40,489 nucleotides of DNA, from NCBI RefSeq assembly GCF_010548245.1, contig NZ_JAAGLR010000875.1, forward strand, positions 1 through 40,489, written 5' to 3'. Of this stretch, positions 12,955 through 39,128 are shown one piece after another; the stretch's first letter is position 1, and the number at the start of each line of letters is the position of its first letter. The translations under genes were made by a program, and so were the position numbers. Source of the DNA: Streptomyces sp. SID11385 (lineage in GTDB: Bacteria; Actinomycetota; Actinomycetes; Streptomycetales; Streptomycetaceae). The notes beneath the pieces were generated by a model, which did not search any database, was not told the origin of the DNA, and worked only from the letters and a program-made list of their open reading frames with translations.

Positions 12955-13440
12955 ATGCCCATCCGCCCCGCCGCCGCCCCCGAGTGGGCCGCCGGCGCCC
13001 TCGTCGTCCTCGTCGGCCCCCCGGCCGCCGGGAAGTCGACCTGGGCCGCCGCCTACCCCGAGACCTGGACCGTCTGCCTCGACACCTACCGCGCCCTCTG
13101 CGCCGACACCGAAGCCGACCAGAGCGCCACCACCGACGCCGTGCGCCTCCAGGACGTCATCCTCGACGCCCGCCTCGCCCGGGGACTGGTGACGATCGTG
13201 GACAGCACCGCGACCGACGCGCACGTACGCCGTACCCTCCTCGCCCGCGCCCACTACTGGCGCCGGCCCGCCTCCGCCATCCTGTTCACCACCTCGCTCA
13301 ACGAGTGCCTCGCACGCAACAGCGCCCGCACCCGACACGTCCCGGAAAGCGTCATTCGACGCAAGCACGATCAGACACCCAGCGCCGCCGAGCTTCACGA
13401 CGAGGGCTTCGACTCGGTCACCACGTGGTGCGCACCGTGA
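12955..13440 (+). CDS. Polynucleotide-kinase-like P-loop ATPase
   Basis: 161 aa. Walker A GPPAAGKST at 21-29; an Asp after the second strand (CLDTYR, D43) where 5'-OH polynucleotide kinases keep their general base; VDST at 82-85; and a lid RNSARTRHVPESVIRRK (121-137) resembling the R-N...R...VP..V lid of T4 Pnk-type kinases. It has no phosphatase domain. Expected reaction: ATP-dependent phosphorylation of a 5'-OH RNA or DNA end. An RNA ligase lies 2.6 kb downstream in the same gene run, which supports RNA repair. Small-molecule kinases of this fold are an alternative. Confidence 0.7.
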   Translation: MPIRPAAAPEWAAGALVVLVGPPAAGKSTWAAAYPETWTVCLDTYRALCADTEADQSATTDAVRLQDVILDARLARGLVTIVDSTATDAHVRRTLLARAHYWRRPASAILFTTSLNECLARNSARTRHVPESVIRRKHDQTPSAAELHDEGFDSVTTWCAP

Positions 13441-15715: not shown

Positions 15716-16038
15716 AGGTCACCCTGGACCTGCCCGACATCACCATCGACCCGACCGACTACGGCTCGCGCGACAAGGACGGCGCCCCCTACGCATTGCC
15801 CGACTGCCCCCACTGCCACACCGAGTACGACGGCCGCATGGCCAAGACGGCCTACGGCCTCGTCCATGAACGATGCGTTGACGCGTGGCTCGCGCGCCGC
15901 GACGAGCGGGACGCGTGGCGGGTCCTCGCCGTGCACGTCGCCCGGTTCCCCTCCCGGCAGTCCGCCGCGGCGATCCGCGCCACCATCCACGCGCTCCTCG
16001 CCATGCAGCCCGCGCCCACCCCGAAGGAGGGGCGGTGA
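15712..16038 (+). CDS. Hypothetical protein (108 aa)
   Basis: ATG overlapping the previous stop. [30 protein letters not shown] contains CxxC and a distant H..C, likely a zinc finger, followed by a helical C-terminus. It ends within the ribosome binding site of the RNA ligase gene, so the two are translationally coupled. Confidence 0.6.
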
Positions 16039-16631
16039 AGAAGATCCCAACCCTGTTCGTCCGCGATTCCGAGGACCGGAGCCGCGTGCTGCCGGAGGTG
16101 ACCCCGGGATGCGAGTGGGTCCTCGACGGCGCAGGCACCCCCACGCGGAAGTGGGACGGCACCTGCGTCATGCTCGACACCGACGGCTCCTGGTGGGCCC
16201 GCCGCGAGGTCAAGCCCGGCAAGATCCCGCCGCCCGACCTCGTCCTCGCCGAGTACGACACGACCACCGGGAAGGCTGTCGGGTGGGAGCCCGTCGAGCG
16301 GTCGCCGTTCGCGAAGTACCACGCCGAGGCGCTGGCCGAGTTCGCCGCCGAGTCCGTCGCGGGCGACCCGAGCATGAAGCCCCGCACCTACGAACTGCTC
16401 GGCCCGAAGATCAACGGGAACCCCGAGCGGTTCGCCAGCCACCTCCTCATCGCCCACGGCTGGGCCCGCTTCTCCGAGCGCCGCGAACTCGCCGCCACCC
16501 CGCGCGACTTCGACGGCCTCCGCGCCTGGCTCCTCGCCCACCCCACCTGGGAGGGCATCGTCTGGCACCACCCCGACGGGCCCATGGCCAAGCTCAAGCG
16601 CCGCGACTTTCCCGCAGGGGGCCGCTCGTGA
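16035..16631 (+). CDS. ATP-dependent RNA ligase (DUF5565-like)
   Basis: 198 aa. The nucleotidyltransferase motifs are all visible: motif I KWDGT (39-43, Lys39 the expected adenylation site), motif III YELLGPKI (119-126), motif IV EGIVW (173-177) and motif V KLKRRDF (186-192). The start IPTLFVRD and the size fit the small RNA ligases grouped as DUF5565. Expected reaction: ATP-dependent joining of RNA 3'-OH and 5'-phosphate ends via an AMP-lysine intermediate. GTG preceded by GAAGGAGG. With the 12955 kinase and the Ro/tRNA-like locus it suggests RNA repair. Confidence 0.85.
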   Translation: MKKIPTLFVRDSEDRSRVLPEVTPGCEWVLDGAGTPTRKWDGTCVMLDTDGSWWARREVKPGKIPPPDLVLAEYDTTTGKAVGWEPVERSPFAKYHAEALAEFAAESVAGDPSMKPRTYELLGPKINGNPERFASHLLIAHGWARFSERRELAATPRDFDGLRAWLLAHPTWEGIVWHHPDGPMAKLKRRDFPAGGRS

Positions 16632-24079: not shown

Positions 24080-25726
24080 TCACTCCCACGGCCAGGCGGC
24101 GTCTCGCCCGCGCTCCAGGAGCGGGATCATCCGGAAGGCCGCGTCCGTGAGCCCGCCGAAGGCGTGCCGGTTCCGACCGCCCGAGGGCGCGTGCCCACGC
24201 TCGTACCCGGCGAGGTTCCACGTGTACATCGGCACCGCGGCGGGGATCGCCGTGTTCACCTCGGCCGGGTCGGCGCCGGACTGCTCGTCCGTGACGATCA
24301 CGACGCGGTCATGCCCCCGGTACAGCTCGCGCAGGGCCGCCGCCGTGTCCGTGCCGCCGCCGAGGAAGTATCCGTCCCGGTCCCATCGCTCGACCGCCCG
24401 AAGCAGCGCCTCGCCGCCGCGCAGCGGGAAGACGCGCGTCTTCGCTCCCGGCGCGTCGCGCAGGTAGTAGCGCGCCGAGGAGTACGACACCACGTCAGCG
24501 CTCGCGCAGCGCTGCCCGAGGGCGATCCCGAAAAGCGCGGCGGCGTCCCAGCGGGCCACCGTCCCGTCCTTCGAGAAGCCCTCCTGCATCGAGGTGGAGG
24601 TGTCGACGAGAACGAGGGTGCGGCCCGGCAGCTCCGGCACGGCGGCGAGGGACGCGGCGAGCGCCTTCTCCAGGGCGTGCCCCCACCGCAGTGACGGGGC
24701 GGCCTTGTAGGCCGAGTAGAACCGCATGGGGAGCTGGCGGGAGCGCGCCACCTCCTCCGGGTCGCCCAGGCGCGCGGCGACACGCTCGGCGACCTCGTCG
24801 CGGACGCCGGCCTCGTCGAGGTTCCGGAGGTTGCGCAGGAGCGCCATGTACCCCATCGACGGGACCACGGCCTCCCACGCCGCCGCGTCCATGGGCCCCT
24901 GGAGCCACCCCGCGAGCGCCTCCCAGGTCATCCCGGCGTGAGACAGCCGCTCCGGCTCGCGAAGCACCTCACGGCGCTTGGCGACGGGCAGCGCGGCGAG
25001 ACGCTCGCGCTCGACGAGGAGGCGGAGCGCGGCCGGAGTTCCCTCGCGGCCGTGGCGCCGGTCGATGGCGTGCTTGAAGAGGTCACCCTGCGTGGGCCGG
25101 TCGGCGGCCGGGCGCGCGTGCACCAGCTCCAGGACGTCCCCGAAGCGGAAGCCGCGCGAGGCCGTGTCGTACTTGAGCAGGGACCGCTCGGTGTAGAGCC
25201 GCTGGACGGCGTCCGCGACACCGCGCTTCACAGGCTGGGGCAGGCGGGCGCCGAACCGGCTTCGCCAGTAGGCGAGCAGCTCCCCCGGCTCGTCCGCGCG
25301 CTGGAGCACGGAGGCGATGAGGCGGCGGTTCGAGTACGGGACGGCGCCGGTGACGGCGATCGGTCCCGGGCGGAGGGAGGCGGCGCGCTCGGCCTCCAAG
25401 CGGGCATGGACGGCCTCGGCGGCGCCGACGAGCGCGGCGGTGCGCAGGTTGCCTTCGCCACGCAGCCAGCCGAGGAGGCCGGCTGCCCAGACCGGGTCCT
25501 CGACGGCCAGGCGTCGCACGAGCTGGGTGAAGCGGTCGTCGCGCGTCTCGGCCGTCTCGTAGGAGGTGTGCTGCCCGACGAGGTTGGTGACGGCCAGGAG
25601 GAAGAGTTCCCCGCGCGGGTCCCGGGCGTAGCCGACGCCGCCCTCGTGCGTGCGTGCGGGGCCGGGGATGGTGGCGACCGGCGACGTGGCGGCCGTGCGG
25701 ACGGCGGGACGGTTGAAGCGGGACAT
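24080..25726 (-). CDS. rsr: Ro60/Rsr family RNA-binding protein (TROVE + vWA)
   Basis: 548 aa from ATG 25726 (AAGGAGG upstream). Residues about 10-350 are the TROVE domain (GGVGYARDPRGELFLLAVTNLVGQHTSYE; WAAGLLGWLRGEGNLRTAALV; MTWEALAGWL). Residues 370-545 are a von Willebrand A domain with an intact MIDAS: DTSTS (375-379), GGGTDT (457-462), TDEQS (489-493). Family knowledge: Ro proteins form a HEAT-repeat ring that binds misfolded RNA through its channel and Y RNA on its outer face. Three structured RNAs, two of them tRNA-like, lie directly upstream on the same strand, as for bacterial rsr loci. Role inferred: RNA quality control or repair during infection. Confidence 0.9.
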   Translation of the reverse strand: MSRFNRPAVRTAATSPVATIPGPARTHEGGVGYARDPRGELFLLAVTNLVGQHTSYETAETRDDRFTQLVRRLAVEDPVWAAGLLGWLRGEGNLRTAALVGAAEAVHARLEAERAASLRPGPIAVTGAVPYSNRRLIASVLQRADEPGELLAYWRSRFGARLPQPVKRGVADAVQRLYTERSLLKYDTASRGFRFGDVLELVHARPAADRPTQGDLFKHAIDRRHGREGTPAALRLLVERERLAALPVAKRREVLREPERLSHAGMTWEALAGWLQGPMDAAAWEAVVPSMGYMALLRNLRNLDEAGVRDEVAERVAARLGDPEEVARSRQLPMRFYSAYKAAPSLRWGHALEKALAASLAAVPELPGRTLVLVDTSTSMQEGFSKDGTVARWDAAALFGIALGQRCASADVVSYSSARYYLRDAPGAKTRVFPLRGGEALLRAVERWDRDGYFLGGGTDTAAALRELYRGHDRVVIVTDEQSGADPAEVNTAIPAAVPMYTWNLAGYERGHAPSGGRNRHAFGGLTDAAFRMIPLLERGRDAAWPWE

Positions 25727-25732
25727 GAAGAA

Positions 25733-25752
25733 CCCCTCCTTCGGGGGAGGGG
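25733..25752 (-). promoter_or_regulatory. Hairpin sequestering the Ro ribosome binding site
   Basis: CCCCTCC pairs with GGAGGGG across a 6-base loop CCCGAA, burying the ribosome binding site seven bases before the ATG. Ro translation may therefore depend on opening this hairpin, or on processing of the upstream RNAs. Confidence 0.6.
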
Positions 25753-25766
25753 AGGCGAGCAGCAGT

Positions 25767-25914
25767 GGGGCGCCCGAGATCGGAAGTGACGGCGGAGACG
25801 AGGATGCTGGGCCGCTGCACCACGGCCCGACGCATGGTCGAGCCGCCGGGATTCGAACCCGGGTCCCCTGTGTGAGAGACAGAAGTATCCGCATGTCGGC
25901 GCACCGGGCGCCCC
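25767..25914 (-). ncRNA. Structured RNA 3: permuted tRNA-Glu-like RNA with closing stem
   Basis: About 148 nt. The outer stem is GGGGCGCCCG / CGGGCGCCCC (10 bp perfect). Inside lies the conserved asymmetric loop, 5' GTGCGCC and 3' CGATCT, then an inner stem (GCGGA/TCCGC plus GAC/GTC), then a full tRNA fold in permuted order. An alternative local hairpin (GCACCGGG/CCCGGTGC) competes with the outer stem. It ends 40 bases before the Ro start. Likely a Y-RNA-type Ro ligand; expression not shown. Confidence 0.75.
25803..25883 (-). tRNA. Circularly permuted tRNA-Glu (CUC) body
   Basis: Order 5' to 3': anticodon arm TCTGT-CTCTCAC-ACAGG (anticodon CTC at 25876-25874, U33 and A37 in place), variable GGAC, T arm CCGGG-TTCGAAT-CCCGG, 3' acceptor CGGCTCG, ACCA, TGCGT, 5' acceptor CGGGCCG, TG, D arm GTGC-AGCGGCCCA-GCAT. 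The acceptor strands pair over 7 bp with one G-U. ACCA matches discriminator plus CCA. The D loop is like actinomycete tRNA-Glu. A standard tRNA would need cutting at the acceptor ends and joining at the D/anticodon border. Confidence 0.75.
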
Positions 25915-25924
25915 GGTGCTGGTG

Positions 25925-25994
25925 CCTCCCGAGATCAAGGCGACGTGCGGCGGTTCACGAGAAGAAGTAGCCGCGGTGTCGGCGCACCGGGAGG
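25925..25994 (-). ncRNA. Structured RNA 2: short hairpin of the same family
   Basis: About 70 nt between the two tRNA-like RNAs. Outer stem CCTCCCG / CGGGAGG; the same internal loop (5' GTGCGCC, 3' TGATCT); inner stem GAC...GCGGC / GCCGC...GTC; terminal loop starting TACTTC, a sequence also found at the equivalent point in the other two RNAs. It lacks the tRNA-like part, so it defines the minimal shared element. Confidence 0.65.
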
Positions 25995-26007
25995 TGCAAG
26001 TTGTGGT

Positions 26008-26137
26008 GTCCAGAGATCGAGTTGGAGCGGGTAATAAGCGCTCTGCCGTTGAGCTACACCACCCGAGGTGGTGACGGGATTCGAACCCGCAGCCTCTCCA
26101 TTACCAGTGGAAGTAACCCGCGCCTTCGCACCTGGAC
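26008..26137 (-). ncRNA. Structured RNA 1: permuted tRNA-Thr-like RNA with closing stem
   Basis: About 130 nt. Outer stem GTCCAG / CTGGAC; conserved internal loop (5' GTGCGAAGGC, 3' CGATCT); inner stem GCGGGT / ACCCGC; then a permuted tRNA fold. An alternative longer pairing of AGGTGC-G-AAG with CTTGCACCT (a stem with a bulged G, reminiscent of the Ro-binding stem of Y RNAs) uses bases just outside. An AT-rich GATAAAAAC about 45 bases upstream could belong to its promoter. Confidence 0.75.
26039..26112 (-). tRNA. Circularly permuted tRNA-Thr (GGU) body
   Basis: Order 5' to 3': anticodon arm TTCCA-CTGGTAA-TGGAG (anticodon GGT at 26105-26103), variable AGGCT, T arm GCGGG-TTCGAAT-CCCGT, 3' acceptor CACCACC, loop TCG, 5' acceptor GGTGGTG, TA, D arm GCTC-AACGGCA-GAGC, G26. 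The acceptor stem is 7 bp perfect, and all conserved bases (U8, A14, G18G19, U33, T-loop TTCGAAT) are present. The three-base acceptor loop leaves no room for CCA, which favours a tRNA mimic over a charged tRNA. Confidence 0.75.
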
Positions 26138-26266
26138 GAGGTGAACGTACCGCCTCAACTCGGCCTTGCGCACTCGTTTTTATCGACCGCTCACCCGGAC
26201 GGGTGAGGGGAGTGAGGGAGATCACTCGGCCTCCGCGACTCGCTCGCGACGCCAACACGCTCGACA

Positions 26267-35244: not shown

Positions 35245-35422
35245 CCCTCAGCGCGCTGTCGTCCTGCACAGCCGTCCCGCGCACCGCGCGCTCGGCTGGT
35301 GCGGGCGGTGTCCGGGCCGCGACCTGGGTGACGAGGTCAGGGCGTGGCGGGATCGTGAGGTCTCCCGCATGCTTGCCGTGAGCACCTCCGTACCGGAGGA
35401 GGCCGCCCGTGCCGGATCGTGA
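35234..35422 (+). CDS. Paralogue of the preceding N-terminal domain (62 aa)
   Basis: LHSRPAHRALGWCGRCPGRDLGDEVRAWRDRE aligns with the N-terminus of the 34897 product, indicating tandem duplication. It overlaps both neighbours (11 bases with the preceding gene, 14 with the next). CxxC present. Confidence 0.6.
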   Translation: MPGDPQRAVVLHSRPAHRALGWCGRCPGRDLGDEVRAWRDREVSRMLAVSTSVPEEAARAGS

Positions 35423-38400
35423 CGCCCTGCTGGCCCAGGCCGAGGACGACATCGCCGCCGAGGTACAGGCCGTCCTCGACGAGGTCACCGCCGACTTCGC
35501 CACCGAACTCGACGCGGCTACCGAGCTGGTCGCCGCCCGGTTCTCCGTGGCGGCCATCGGCCGCATGTGGAGCCGCCAGGTTCCGCGTCTCGTGCGCCGC
35601 CTCCTCGGCATCACCGAGGCAGCAGCACAGCACGCCGCCGGCACGGTCGACGCCGAGCTGCCCGAAGGCTGGGAGAACCTGCCCGGCCGCTACGACAGCG
35701 ACCGGCTCCCGGCTGGGCTCGGCGCCTACGTCGAGACGACCGAGCACCTGCTGCGCGCAGTCGGTGACCGTCTCTCCAGCGCGGCCGTCACGGAGCTGGC
35801 GGCCGGGCTGGACGCGGGCGAGGACATCGAGGCGCTGCGGGCCCGCCTGCGGGCGGCCTTCGGCCGGGAAGGCGCGCAGCTCGGCCACGCCCGCGAGGAA
35901 CGGATCGCGCGGACCGAAGCGGTCCGGGCCTGGAACTCGGCGACGCTCGCCGCAGGCATGGCACTCACGGGCCGGGACCGGCCGCTCGTGAAGCAGTGGC
36001 TCACCCGCGGGGACTCGACGGTCCGGGACGCCCACGAGGACGTGGCCGGGCAACTGCGGCTGCTGAACGAGCCGTTCACGGTGGGCGGGGTGGAGATGTC
36101 CGGCCCTGGCGACCCGGGCGCCCCGCCCGCTCTCACTGTGAACTGCCGGTGCGTCCTTGCATTGGCGCACGCGGACCGTTCCGCAGCCATGGAATCCAAA
36201 ACGATCTCCCGTGCCGCGTCTTTGAATCGAAAGGATCTCGCGATCATGGAGTCACTGACCGCCGCGAGCGGCGAGCACACAGGCGCGATGATCGCGCTCC
36301 TGCCCACCCCAGCCGACGCCGCCGGCCTCGCCATTGACGAAGGCGAAGACGTCAGCGAGCTGCACCTCACCCTCTACTACCTCGGCGAGAGCGCCGACTG
36401 GTCCGACGGCGAGCGCGCCGAGCTGGCCAACGCCGTCCGCGCGCGACTCGCCGACATCCCCGGCCCGCTGCCCGGCTACGCCTTCGGCGCGAACCACTGG
36501 AACAGCAACGGCGACGACCCGTGCTGGGTCTGGGCAGTCGGCGACGACCGCGACGCGAACGAGGACGGACCCACCCTCACCACCGTCCGCGCTGCCGCCG
36601 CCGACGCGCTGCAAGAGGCTCACGGCCCTGAGATTCCCCGGCAGCACAGCCCGTGGGTGCCGCACGTCGCCGCCGCCTACTCCCCCGATCCCGCGCTCCT
36701 CGCCGAGCTGGAAAGCCGCCTCGGCCCGATCATCTTCGACCGGGTCCGGCTCGCCTTCGGGGGCGAGCACATCGACATCCCCCTCGGCCCCGCTGATGTT
36801 CCCGCCGAGCAGACCGCCGCCGCGCCGGTCGCCCTCCTCCCCCGCCCCTGGTCCACCCCCGGCGACGCGGCCCTCGCATACGAGAACACCGAGACCGGCG
36901 ACGGCCGCATCTTCGCGCCCGGCTCCGTCACCTGGGGTACCGGCCCGTGGCCCCTCCAGTACGCCGACGAGATGCTGTCCGGCCACGAGGGCGCTGAACT
37001 GGCCGGGTCCATCCAGGAAGTGAGCCGCGACGGCGACCGCATCGCCGGTGCTGGAGTCCTCTACCCCGGACGCCCCGCCGGCGCCGACGCCATCCTGCTC
37101 TTGGAGGACGAGGCACCCCTCGGCGTCAGCGTCGACCTCGACGACGTCGACGTTGAGTTCATCGACCGGCGCCCGCCCGAGGAGCAGCCGCAGGACGACG
37201 AAGTGCTCCTCGTCGCCTCCCTCGCCTCCGCGTCCGTGCTGCGCCTCGCCGACGGAGGGTGGATGGTCCGGGCCACCGCCGCCGCGCAGTGGACCGCGAG
37301 CGGGCAGGCCATGCTCCGTACGAGCCACGCCGCCGAGTGGACGACCGCGGCCGACGGCACCGTCCCCGTCAAAGCCGTACGCGCCGCGCTCACGGACGCG
37401 CGGATCACCGCTGCCGCCGGTGACCCCGACGATCCCGAGCGCGGGGAGCTGGTCCACCAGGAGTCCGCAGGCGATGTCCTCATGCGGATCACCCGCGCCC
37501 GGCTGCGCGGCGCGACTCTCGTCGCCATGCCCGCCTACGACCGGGCCCGCATCGTCCTCGGCCCGGAGCCGGACCCCGAGCAGACGGCAGCCTGCACTCC
37601 CACGGTGCAGGCCGCCGGGGACGCGATGACCCGCGTCATCCGCTACGTCTCCGGTGCCCCCGTCGCCGTCACCCCCCGCGAGGTCGCCGAGGCCCTGCGC
37701 ATCCCCCTCGCGCAGGCCCGGTCCCTGCTTGCCCGCGCGGTCACCGCCGGGCACCTCGTACGGCTCGCGCGCGGCCTGTACGTCGGCGCCCCCGACCTCC
37801 CCGAGGGGGACGTGTCGGCCTCGATGTCGGGCGACCTCTCTCTTCCCGTCCATCCCGACCGGGACGCCCCCTGGGACGGCGACGCCGCCGCCTCCCGCGT
37901 TCTCGCCTGGGCCACCGCCGAGGACGGCACCGTGAACGGCCAGCGCCTCGGCGCGGCGTTCCTCTACCGCGACGACACCGCCGATCCGGCCACGCTCGCC
38001 GCGTACAAGCTCGGCACCGCCGACGTCTTCGACGGCGAACTCCACATCGTGCCGGGCGCGGTCTTCGCGATCGCCTCCGTTCTCCAGGGCGGCCGAGGCG
38101 GAGCCGACATCCCCGAGACCGAGCAGGACGACCTCCGCGCCCGCGTCGAAGACCTCTACGCCCGGCTCGCAGACGCACTGGACGACCCGACGCTGCGCGC
38201 CCCCTGGGACGACGACGAAGAGGAGACCGGCATGCGCGAGCTCGAAGCATCTGCCTGGAACGCGATGAGCCAGGCGCCCCCGATGCCCGCCGCGTGGTTC
38301 CGCGAGCCGACCGAGGAGGAACTGCCGCCCGGCTCCGGCGGCGTCCACTACAAGGACGGCAGGGTGTACGGCTGGGTCGCCCAGGCCGGAGAGCCGCACG

Positions 38401-39128
38401 CCGGATACCCGGGCAAGAACCTGACGATCGAGAGCCTGGGGCGCATCGACACCACGCATTTCCTCCGCGCGCGGTTCCGCCTCGACGACGGCAGCACCGT
38501 CAAGGTCGGCACCTTCACCATGAACGTGGGGCACCACCGCGACGGCGCGGAGTGCGAGACCGCCGTCTGCCAGTTCGACGACACGCGCACCGTCGCCGGA
38601 ATCGTCACCGTCGGCATGAACCAGCGCGGCATGTGGTTCAGCGGCGCGGCATCCCCGTGGCTCGCCGAGTGGGACCGTGCCGTTTTCCAGGCGTGCCAGC
38701 CGAGCTACCACATGCGGCAGGGCCGGGGCGGGGCCTGGCAGCTCCGCGCCGTCCTGTCCGTGCCTGTGCCCGGACACAGCTCTCCGCTCCTCGCGTCCGC
38801 CGTCGCTGAGCGCTCGAACCTCGCCCTCGTCGCCTCCATGTCCGCGCTCGTGACCAGCACGGACACCCCGGCCGGACAGCCGGACACCACCCCAGGCGGA
38901 CAAGCTCCGGACCTGCCCGGACAGGCTCCGGACGAGTCGGCCACCAGCGCCCTGGCAGCCGCCCTCGCCTCCCCTCCCGTCCTGGACCGGCTCCTGGACG
39001 CCCTGGACCAGCGCGCGGCGGATCGGCAGGCAGCGCGCGCCGAGATCGAGCAGCTCACCCAGCGGCTCGCCCCTGCCCGGATGGACCTGGCCGCATCCTT
39101 CGCGGCGAAGGTCAAGGAAGGAATCTGA
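35409..39128 (+). CDS. MuF / 2H phosphoesterase / prohead protease fusion
   Basis: 1239 aa. Residues 160-255: MuF-like head morphogenesis domain (RTEAVRAWNSATL, WLTRGDSTVRDAHEDV, FTVGGVEMSGPGDP, VNCRC). Residues 290-430: 2H (LigT-like) phosphoesterase with HLT (319-321) and HVA (419-421), the second motif having Ala where Ser/Thr is usual. Residues 495-730: prohead protease (GDGRIFAPGSV, GVSVDL with Ser574, ARLRGATLVAMPAYDRARI). Then a winged-helix-like stretch (VTPREVAEALRIPLAQARSLLARAV), a protease-associated domain (YKLGTADVFDGELHIVPGAVFAIASVL) and a C-terminal coiled coil typical of scaffolds. A lower-GC patch at 36176-36246 marks the MuF/2H border and contains ATGs (36189, 36246) that may be internal starts. 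Confidence 0.85.
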   Translation: MPDRDALLAQAEDDIAAEVQAVLDEVTADFATELDAATELVAARFSVAAIGRMWSRQVPRLVRRLLGITEAAAQHAAGTVDAELPEGWENLPGRYDSDRLPAGLGAYVETTEHLLRAVGDRLSSAAVTELAAGLDAGEDIEALRARLRAAFGREGAQLGHAREERIARTEAVRAWNSATLAAGMALTGRDRPLVKQWLTRGDSTVRDAHEDVAGQLRLLNEPFTVGGVEMSGPGDPGAPPALTVNCRCVLALAHADRSAAMESKTISRAASLNRKDLAIMESLTAASGEHTGAMIALLPTPADAAGLAIDEGEDVSELHLTLYYLGESADWSDGERAELANAVRARLADIPGPLPGYAFGANHWNSNGDDPCWVWAVGDDRDANEDGPTLTTVRAAAADALQEAHGPEIPRQHSPWVPHVAAAYSPDPALLAELESRLGPIIFDRVRLAFGGEHIDIPLGPADVPAEQTAAAPVALLPRPWSTPGDAALAYENTETGDGRIFAPGSVTWGTGPWPLQYADEMLSGHEGAELAGSIQEVSRDGDRIAGAGVLYPGRPAGADAILLLEDEAPLGVSVDLDDVDVEFIDRRPPEEQPQDDEVLLVASLASASVLRLADGGWMVRATAAAQWTASGQAMLRTSHAAEWTTAADGTVPVKAVRAALTDARITAAAGDPDDPERGELVHQESAGDVLMRITRARLRGATLVAMPAYDRARIVLGPEPDPEQTAACTPTVQAAGDAMTRVIRYVSGAPVAVTPREVAEALRIPLAQARSLLARAVTAGHLVRLARGLYVGAPDLPEGDVSASMSGDLSLPVHPDRDAPWDGDAAASRVLAWATAEDGTVNGQRLGAAFLYRDDTADPATLAAYKLGTADVFDGELHIVPGAVFAIASVLQGGRGGADIPETEQDDLRARVEDLYARLADALDDPTLRAPWDDDEEETGMRELEASAWNAMSQAPPMPAAWFREPTEEELPPGSGGVHYKDGRVYGWVAQAGEPHAGYPGKNLTIESLGRIDTTHFLRARFRLDDGSTVKVGTFTMNVGHHRDGAECETAVCQFDDTRTVAGIVTVGMNQRGMWFSGAASPWLAEWDRAVFQACQPSYHMRQGRGGAWQLRAVLSVPVPGHSSPLLASAVAERSNLALVASMSALVTSTDTPAGQPDTTPGGQAPDLPGQAPDESATSALAAALASPPVLDRLLDALDQRAADRQAARAEIEQLTQRLAPARMDLAASFAAKVKEGI

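Follow-up and report, generated by a model that had tools for sequence, protein, structure and literature searches.

The purpose of bacterial Y RNAs, which are known to mimic tRNAs, is unsettled. In the sections consulted of a review, YrlA is likened to the D, T and acceptor arms of tRNA, and the mimicry described there stops short of the anticodon; the same source gives Y RNAs a tether role in RYPER and notes modification by DusA and TruB (PMC8394870). The tRNA-like domain of YrlA has been proposed as a possible competitive inhibitor of anticodon nuclease, and YrlA itself is no substrate of the nuclease studied, according to the portion of the report drawn on here (Hughes et al. 2020, PMC7790460). 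Y RNAs have also been found in mycobacteriophages (PMC12282133, citing Chen et al. 2014), and in an excerpted survey TROVE proteins that have a tRNA-like partner are counted as phage RNA-repair genes (PMC7824862). Permutation of the tRNA itself is known from algae and archaea, in which, as far as the source excerpt goes, permuted tRNAs mature through a bulge-helix-bulge motif and a splicing endonuclease (PMC3978253).

Ro-adjacent Y RNAs with a permuted tRNA-like domain, as in YrlA, are thus already known from the sources used here, and the addition described below is an anticodon arm. We found no mention of such an arm in a Y RNA in the literature searched; an earlier description is possible, the founding papers on bacterial Y RNAs lying outside that search.

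A three-unit array beside a Ro gene on a phage-like contig

The window, by which we mean the whole 40,489-nt stretch analysed, is contig NZ_JAAGLR010000875.1 from Streptomyces sp. SID11385. Three tandem Y-RNA-like units on its minus strand precede a Ro gene. An earlier note had described the first of them as a circularly permuted tRNA-Thr(GGU) upstream of a Ro gene and had missed the other two; a Ro/TROVE gene (24080–25726, minus strand) indeed lies downstream of the array.

Read along the minus strand, unit 1 (26005–26138) runs from a closing stem through the anticodon arm, T arm, 3′ acceptor strand, a UCG loop, 5′ acceptor strand, U8-A9 and D arm back to the closing stem. Each arm that the note had listed in this permuted order was found paired and in its place: an anticodon arm UUCCA-CUGGUAA-UGGAG with a Thr(GGU)-type loop (26096–26112), a T arm GCGGG-UUCGAAU-CCCGU with a UUCGAAU loop (26074–26090), an acceptor stem in which the 3′ strand CACCACC comes before the 5′ strand GGUGGUG (26057–26073) and a D arm GCUC-AACGGCA-GAGC (26040–26054), all on the minus strand. 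The acceptor stem has the perfect seven base pairs claimed for it, and U8, A14, G18G19, U33 and TTCGAAT can all be read from the minus strand. The two flanking stems said to close the RNA, GUCCAG/CUGGAC and GCGGGU/ACCCGC, are likewise present, and the minimum-energy structure (ViennaRNA) contains them together with all other named helices and an extra 4-bp helix around the T-acceptor-D part. The folding energy beats that of shuffled sequences modestly (z −1.88; 6 of 200 shuffles as good), and the domain may adopt the L-shaped fold of a tRNA. Our covariance model R1 scores the unit at 126.2 bits, unit 1 being itself one of the 64 R1 training sequences.

A −10-like hexamer, TACGTT, lies upstream of unit 1 (26144–26149, minus strand); a full sigma-70 promoter pair was looked for there and not found. 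Across homologous loci, a TANNNT box precedes the first unit by 6–7 nt in 41 of 137 cases, compared with about one per offset in shuffled sequence, and this fixed distance supports transcription of unit 1, probably from the −10-like box.

Unit 2 (25921–25996, minus strand) is a short hairpin with the closing motifs GGUGCG and GAUCUCGGG and without a tRNA-like domain. Unit 3 (25769–25912, minus strand) holds a second permuted tRNA-like domain, its anticodon arm (25867–25883, minus strand) bearing the Glu(CUC)-type loop CUCUCAC; it scores 93.9 bits with R1, of which it too is a training sequence. All three units carry GGUGCG toward their 5′ end and GAUCUCNGG toward their 3′ end. In unit 3 an ACCA immediately follows the 3′ acceptor strand, and ARAGORN calls an ordinary tRNA-Glu within it (25835–25903). 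Folded without constraint, unit 3 retains its T arm and acceptor, and its anticodon and D arms are drawn differently. With tmRNA and permuted tmRNA (RF00023 and RF04321), unit 3 shares a tRNA-like acceptor and T arm, and it gives weak matches to both models (25.8 and 22.6 bits); these fall below the two gathering scores (47), however, and by this Rfam search unit 3 is assigned to neither family.

The protein encoded next to the array has 548 residues and combines a TROVE domain (PF05731, E 1.8e-14) with a VWA region (VWA_2, 20.4 bits, under its cut-off of 27) that carries a MIDAS-like motif, DTSTS, at residue 375. Its family profile matches the structures 2nvo (Rsr, E 1.1e-12) and 1yvp (Ro, E 9e-13), and the pairing of TROVE and VWA with a MIDAS-type motif places it among the Ro60/Rsr proteins. 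The closest named relative found, from Streptomyces sp. SPB074, is 93% identical. A GC-rich hairpin, picked up as a terminator-like pattern (25733–25752, minus strand), overlaps the likely ribosome-binding site (AGGAGGGG) of the gene and could serve translational control.

Elsewhere the contig is phage-like, with genes for replication initiators, a terminase large subunit, a portal and head proteins. Searches also annotated a PNK-like protein (12955–13440, plus strand) and an RNA ligase (phrog_14301, RLIG1 family; 15885–16631, plus strand), possibly an RNA repair pair. The large head protein (35409–39128, plus strand) contains a MuF region and an internal stretch resembling the 2′-5′ RNA ligase superfamily (PF13563, whose cut-off is 27 bits; the score here is 25.9).

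Conservation of the arms and relation to YrlA

We compared unit 1 with 190 Ro loci, a sample that includes duplicates (L001, L009 and L111 are near-identical, and L037 = L118 and L042 = L124 as contigs). A descriptor for the T arm, acceptor and D arm, which can also match tandem tRNAs, found 217 modules in 160 of these loci; 142 modules, in 127 loci, had the anticodon arm with U33 as well. The same descriptor applied to mononucleotide shuffles of all loci (three times over, 4.67 Mb) found one T-acceptor-D module and none with an anticodon arm. Pairs of closing motifs, some of them overlapping, marked at least one unit in 153 of the 190 loci and at least two in 131, and a frequent layout is a unit of about 122 nt, one of about 55 nt and one of about 120–140 nt, which is also the layout in the window.

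For alignment A1 we took 64 of 70 non-redundant modules that had been picked for perfect anticodon arms and a purine at position 37, leaving out by eye six that were outliers or possible tRNA junctions (L064, L087:3647, L099, L125:1050, L125:1687 and L139). Paired cells make up 94.3% of A1, two-sided changes occur in 26 of 36 pairs, and the covariation score is 0.552 compared with 0.165 after shuffling (0 of 500 as high), while slid pairings reach at most 50%. The terminal closing stem (helix 1), independently of which the modules were chosen, is paired in 99.0% of cells and has two-sided changes in five of its six pairs. Unit 1 and its relatives therefore have the conserved terminal stem, formed from the 5′ and 3′ ends, that marks bacterial Y RNAs. 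For the anticodon arm the alignment says less: RNAalifold did not predict this arm on A1, and two-sided covariation within it is confined to the two inner pairs. Owing to how A1 was selected, the tests of covariation, loop identity and 36–37 coupling that use it lean toward structure, and we dropped A1 covariation as sole proof of the anticodon arm.

Because the A1 modules had been preselected for good tRNA stems, the structure test was repeated on units defined by their flanking motifs alone. No structure was required of this set, in which 177 long units reduced to 120 non-redundant ones, 111 of them with a T loop. At least six of seven acceptor pairs form in 91 of the 111 units (shuffled mean 34, maximum 49). 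A complete five-pair anticodon arm, taken as the best of three registers, forms in 54 of 110 units, whereas shuffling gives a mean of 17.2 and a maximum of 27 and sliding the partner strand gives 3 to 11. Relaxing the requirement to at least four pairs raises the count to 81 of 110 (shuffled mean 62, maximum 74), but slid pairings then range from 24 to 77, so the looser count says little. The remaining 29 of 110 tRNA-like units lack an anticodon arm at the registers tested and resemble ordinary YrlA-type domains. The comparison of arm pairings in homologous Ro loci, which the earlier note had named as a check, thus finds the pairings kept both in A1 and in the motif-only units, and on these counts a chance origin of the unit 1 architecture is excluded by its homologues.

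Unit 1 matches the Rfam YrlA model (RF02553) from end to end, with 40.4 bits and E 1.7e-7 in 601 bases, and falls short of the gathering score of 69 bits. No Rfam family reached its gathering score anywhere in the window, and none of 12 phage or plasmid Ro loci contained YrlA at that threshold. What the unit shares with YrlA is its place beside a Ro gene, a terminal closing stem and the same permuted order of T arm, acceptor and D arm. YrlA, however, has a 4-nt linker before the T arm and no separate anticodon arm, whereas in unit 1 that place is taken by an anticodon arm of 5 bp whose loop is of tRNA type, an arm that is complete in 54 of 110 related units as noted above; the tandem arrays with their short unit are a further difference. 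Given the anticodon arm, we class the RNA as a variant Y RNA and not as YrlA. The suggestion that the element mimics a tRNA, as bacterial Y RNAs do, proved the better of the earlier readings, in view of the end-to-end YrlA match and the Y-RNA-like array beside Ro. Judged by these features, unit 1 is almost certainly a Y-type RNA that neighbours Ro and combines a permuted tRNA-like domain with an anticodon arm.

A separate Y unit, L088 3468–3610, appears by eye to have its tRNA-like part in the canonical order of D, anticodon and T arms, with a UUCG-capped stem in place of the anticodon loop.

Anticodon loops and candidate functions

We compared the anticodon loops of the modules with those of 42 host and 34 phage tRNA species, as parsed. 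In A1, whose selection leans toward the structure, 51 of 64 loops are identical to a real tRNA loop (29.8 ± 2.9 after column shuffling; 0 of 2000 as high), as are 18 of the 31 distinct loops (9.0 expected; 0 of 2000). The motif-only units with at least four anticodon pairs gave a similar picture, 49 of 81 loops being those of a real host or phage tRNA (column shuffle mean 19.3, maximum 29, in 2000). In the window itself the unit 3 loop is the loop of the host Glu(CUC) tRNA, and the unit 1 loop CUGGUAA is absent from the reference list, the host Thr(GGU) loop being AUGGUAA. Positions 36 and 37 show the G36-G37 coupling of real tRNAs in 60 of 64 A1 modules (47 expected; 0 of 5000), and among 58 modules the module body ranks nearer to the cognate tRNA than it does with shuffled labels (0.272 vs 0.423; 0 of 500).

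The loops also vary between units. In a Streptomyces-type subfamily of 24 units, the most variable of 39 positions is 35, and position 34 comes third; this wider pattern was chosen after a first, too strict one had yielded six units and its result had been seen. On one conserved scaffold the subfamily carries mostly Lys, Met, Asn, Ile and Arg anticodons. None of the 12 loci with two scored modules, three of them near-identical, repeats an anticodon. Across the 142 modules of the descriptor set, GUU is the commonest anticodon (24 modules).

Since the relatives carry many different real tRNA anticodon loops, we regard a swappable tRNA decoy held by Ro as a likely kind of role for the family, and we tentatively favour, at somewhat under even chances, the reading that unit 1 itself acts as an anticodon-specific decoy or bait. 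The features that point this way are the permuted and co-varying arms, the array at the side of Ro, the joint occurrence of units and Ro across the genus, the authentic loops in relatives, the variable anticodons of the subfamily, the phage setting and the nuclease inhibition proposed for the YrlA domain (Hughes et al. 2020, PMC7790460). Counting against it are the 29 units that lack an anticodon arm, the weakness of the four-pair count and of arm covariation in A1, the absence of the unit 1 loop from the reference list, the statement by Hughes et al. that YrlA is no substrate of their nuclease, the full-length matches away from a listed TROVE match and a largely negative search for repair or tRNA links in virus records. 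Ro would bind the unit through the conserved closing stem, and the bound mimic would present its anticodon loop and elbow to tRNA-targeting enzymes. The main targets, encountered in the course of phage infection, would be anticodon nucleases or tRNA toxins, with which the mimic would compete or which it would sequester, and different units would bear different anticodons to suit different enzymes. In some actinophages Ro is found amid tRNA genes, a likeness to phage tRNA and RNA-repair systems; those systems replace or mend tRNA, as described in the excerpt used, whereas a decoy would compete for the enzyme instead (PMC7824862). A fuller version, in which phages encode a Ro-scaffolded repertoire of anticodon decoys built as tandem-tRNA-junction Y RNAs, with a fixed elbow and Ro handle and an anticodon swapped against host anticodon nucleases or other tRNA-targeting defences, seems to us rather unlikely as a whole.

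Should the decoy reading hold, it would bear on how phages protect or capture the tRNA machinery, and anticodon-bearing Y RNAs could link Ro to a phage arms race over tRNAs. Genuine, exchangeable anticodon loops in any case make the question of why a Y RNA should mimic a tRNA testable through enzymes that read anticodons.

The units might instead be conventional bacterial Y RNAs, tethers or gates by which Ro steers an exoribonuclease such as PNPase, with a tRNA shape that serves stability or modification by tRNA enzymes only and an anticodon arm that is a neutral remnant of tRNA origin. The end-to-end YrlA match agrees with this, as do the tether role and the DusA and TruB modification described in the review sections cited above (PMC8394870), the tRNA-like units without an anticodon arm in the same loci and the acceptor loops that start with NCCA in 20 of 132 unique modules (3.7 in shuffles). 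A neutral remnant, however, should not keep U33, a purine at 37, the 36–37 coupling and real loops across diverse loci, nor should it vary most at positions 34 and 35. We consider this account a serious possibility, though one we doubt.

An improbable alternative is that the units bait tRNA-modifying or ANN-reading enzymes and so regulate translation rather than block nucleases. One candidate is t6A37 synthesis, which reads U36-A37. U36 is found in 35 of 64 A1 modules and in 10 of 42 host tRNA species (p 0.002, a statistic that ignores kinship), and 22 of the 24 subfamily units keep it. But another base stands at position 36 in 29 of the 64 modules, and the excess could simply stem from an origin in a tandem tRNA-Asn(GUU) junction. 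The U36 excess taken by itself could thus reflect either descent from tRNA-Asn or recognition of ANN-reading tRNAs.

With the permuted tRNA genes of algae and archaea the domain has in common that the 3′ half precedes the 5′ half across a short intervening loop. As those genes are described in the excerpt used, the differences are that the opening of the RNA predicted here lies between the D and anticodon arms and is extended into a long stem and that the acceptor loop of unit 1 lacks CCA (PMC3978253). The earlier designation as a circularly permuted tRNA-Thr(GGU) stands as anatomy; a functional Thr tRNA is unlikely because a 3-base UCG loop closes the acceptor and leaves no room for a discriminator and CCA. 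That the units are true permuted tRNA genes, whose precursor is cut and ligated into a working Thr or Glu tRNA, is very improbable even with all arms and the anticodon intact, ACCA encoded after the unit 3 acceptor and an RNA ligase and PNK-like protein on the contig, for besides the closed unit 1 acceptor a crude scan for patterns fitted a UNCG or GNRA cap to the acceptor ends of 48 among 132 unique relatives, and bacteria are not known to have the splicing endonuclease system by which known permuted tRNAs mature.

Distribution and origin

Among 37 genomes of the same genus, full-length R1 matches above 70 bits occurred in all 23 with a Ro gene and in none of the 14 without one, a count that ignores kinship; location beside a Ro/Rsr gene, as expected of a bacterial Y RNA, is likewise seen in the window, in which the Ro gene adjoins the array. 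At least three full-length matches above 120 bits (G016:C3:297837, G032:C5:44634 and G033:C42:44097) have no listed TROVE match nearby, and these copies are possibly orphan units or lie beside an unrecognised Ro.

R1 also matched near the Ro genes of ten phages, picked from the matches and not sampled (BRock, GiJojo, VanLee, Kela, Atuin, Neville, Sparky, prophiGD43A-5, Magritte and Cashline), and near Ro on a Rhodococcus plasmid. In Atuin the best match is downstream of Ro; annotated tRNA genes surround Ro in BRock, GiJojo and Atuin, and in Kela an RNA ligase adjoins Ro. The mycobacteriophage LeBron has a T-acceptor-D part beside an RNA-binding-protein gene, with no clear anticodon arm and an R1 score of 37 bits.

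Current annotation labels such RNAs as tRNAs in four phage records. Permuted Y units are overlapped by a 'tRNA-Arg(cct)' in GiJojo (L222 2769–2843), a 'tRNA-Arg(tct)' in VanLee (L223 2704–2775), a 'tRNA-Thr(tgt)' in prophiGD43A-5 (L416 2469–2547) and a 'tRNA-Arg(tct)' in Magritte (L417 2471–2547), none of which the Rfam tRNA model recovers at its gathering threshold.

More general associations of Ro were sought in 50 virus records, 25 of 80 Ro loci and 25 of 80 terminase loci, taken from the top of each list with a minimum length of 30 kb; 26 records bear Ro and 24 do not. General links found no support for RNA ligase (phrog_14301 in 1 of the 26 records with Ro and in 0 of the 24 without), for RtcB (0 of 50) or for tRNA genes (RF00005 cut-off passed in 3 of 26 and 1 of 24). 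With so few tRNAs above the RF00005 cut-off in Ro-bearing records, the placement of Ro within tRNA arrays seen in some cultured phages does not hold generally. RF00005 matches at E ≤ 0.001 occur in 13 of the 50 records, and some of them are probably Y units.

In the source genome the only full-length R1 matches are units 1 and 3. Two partial matches cover the tRNA-like part alone, and one of these falls where two tRNA-Asn(GUU) genes meet in tandem, separated by 4 nt (G000:C77:66117–66267, or L412 1453–1604); on its own this junction reaches 58 bits against the tRNA-like part of R1. Many genomes of the genus likewise contain partial R1 matches of this extent. From the junction match, the prevalence of GUU among the modules and the NCCA that follows the acceptor in 20 of 132 unique modules, we infer that the permuted domain may have arisen when a tandem tRNA junction was captured into the loop of a Y RNA, which would suggest a simple route by which permuted tRNA-like RNAs could come from two tRNA genes in tandem.
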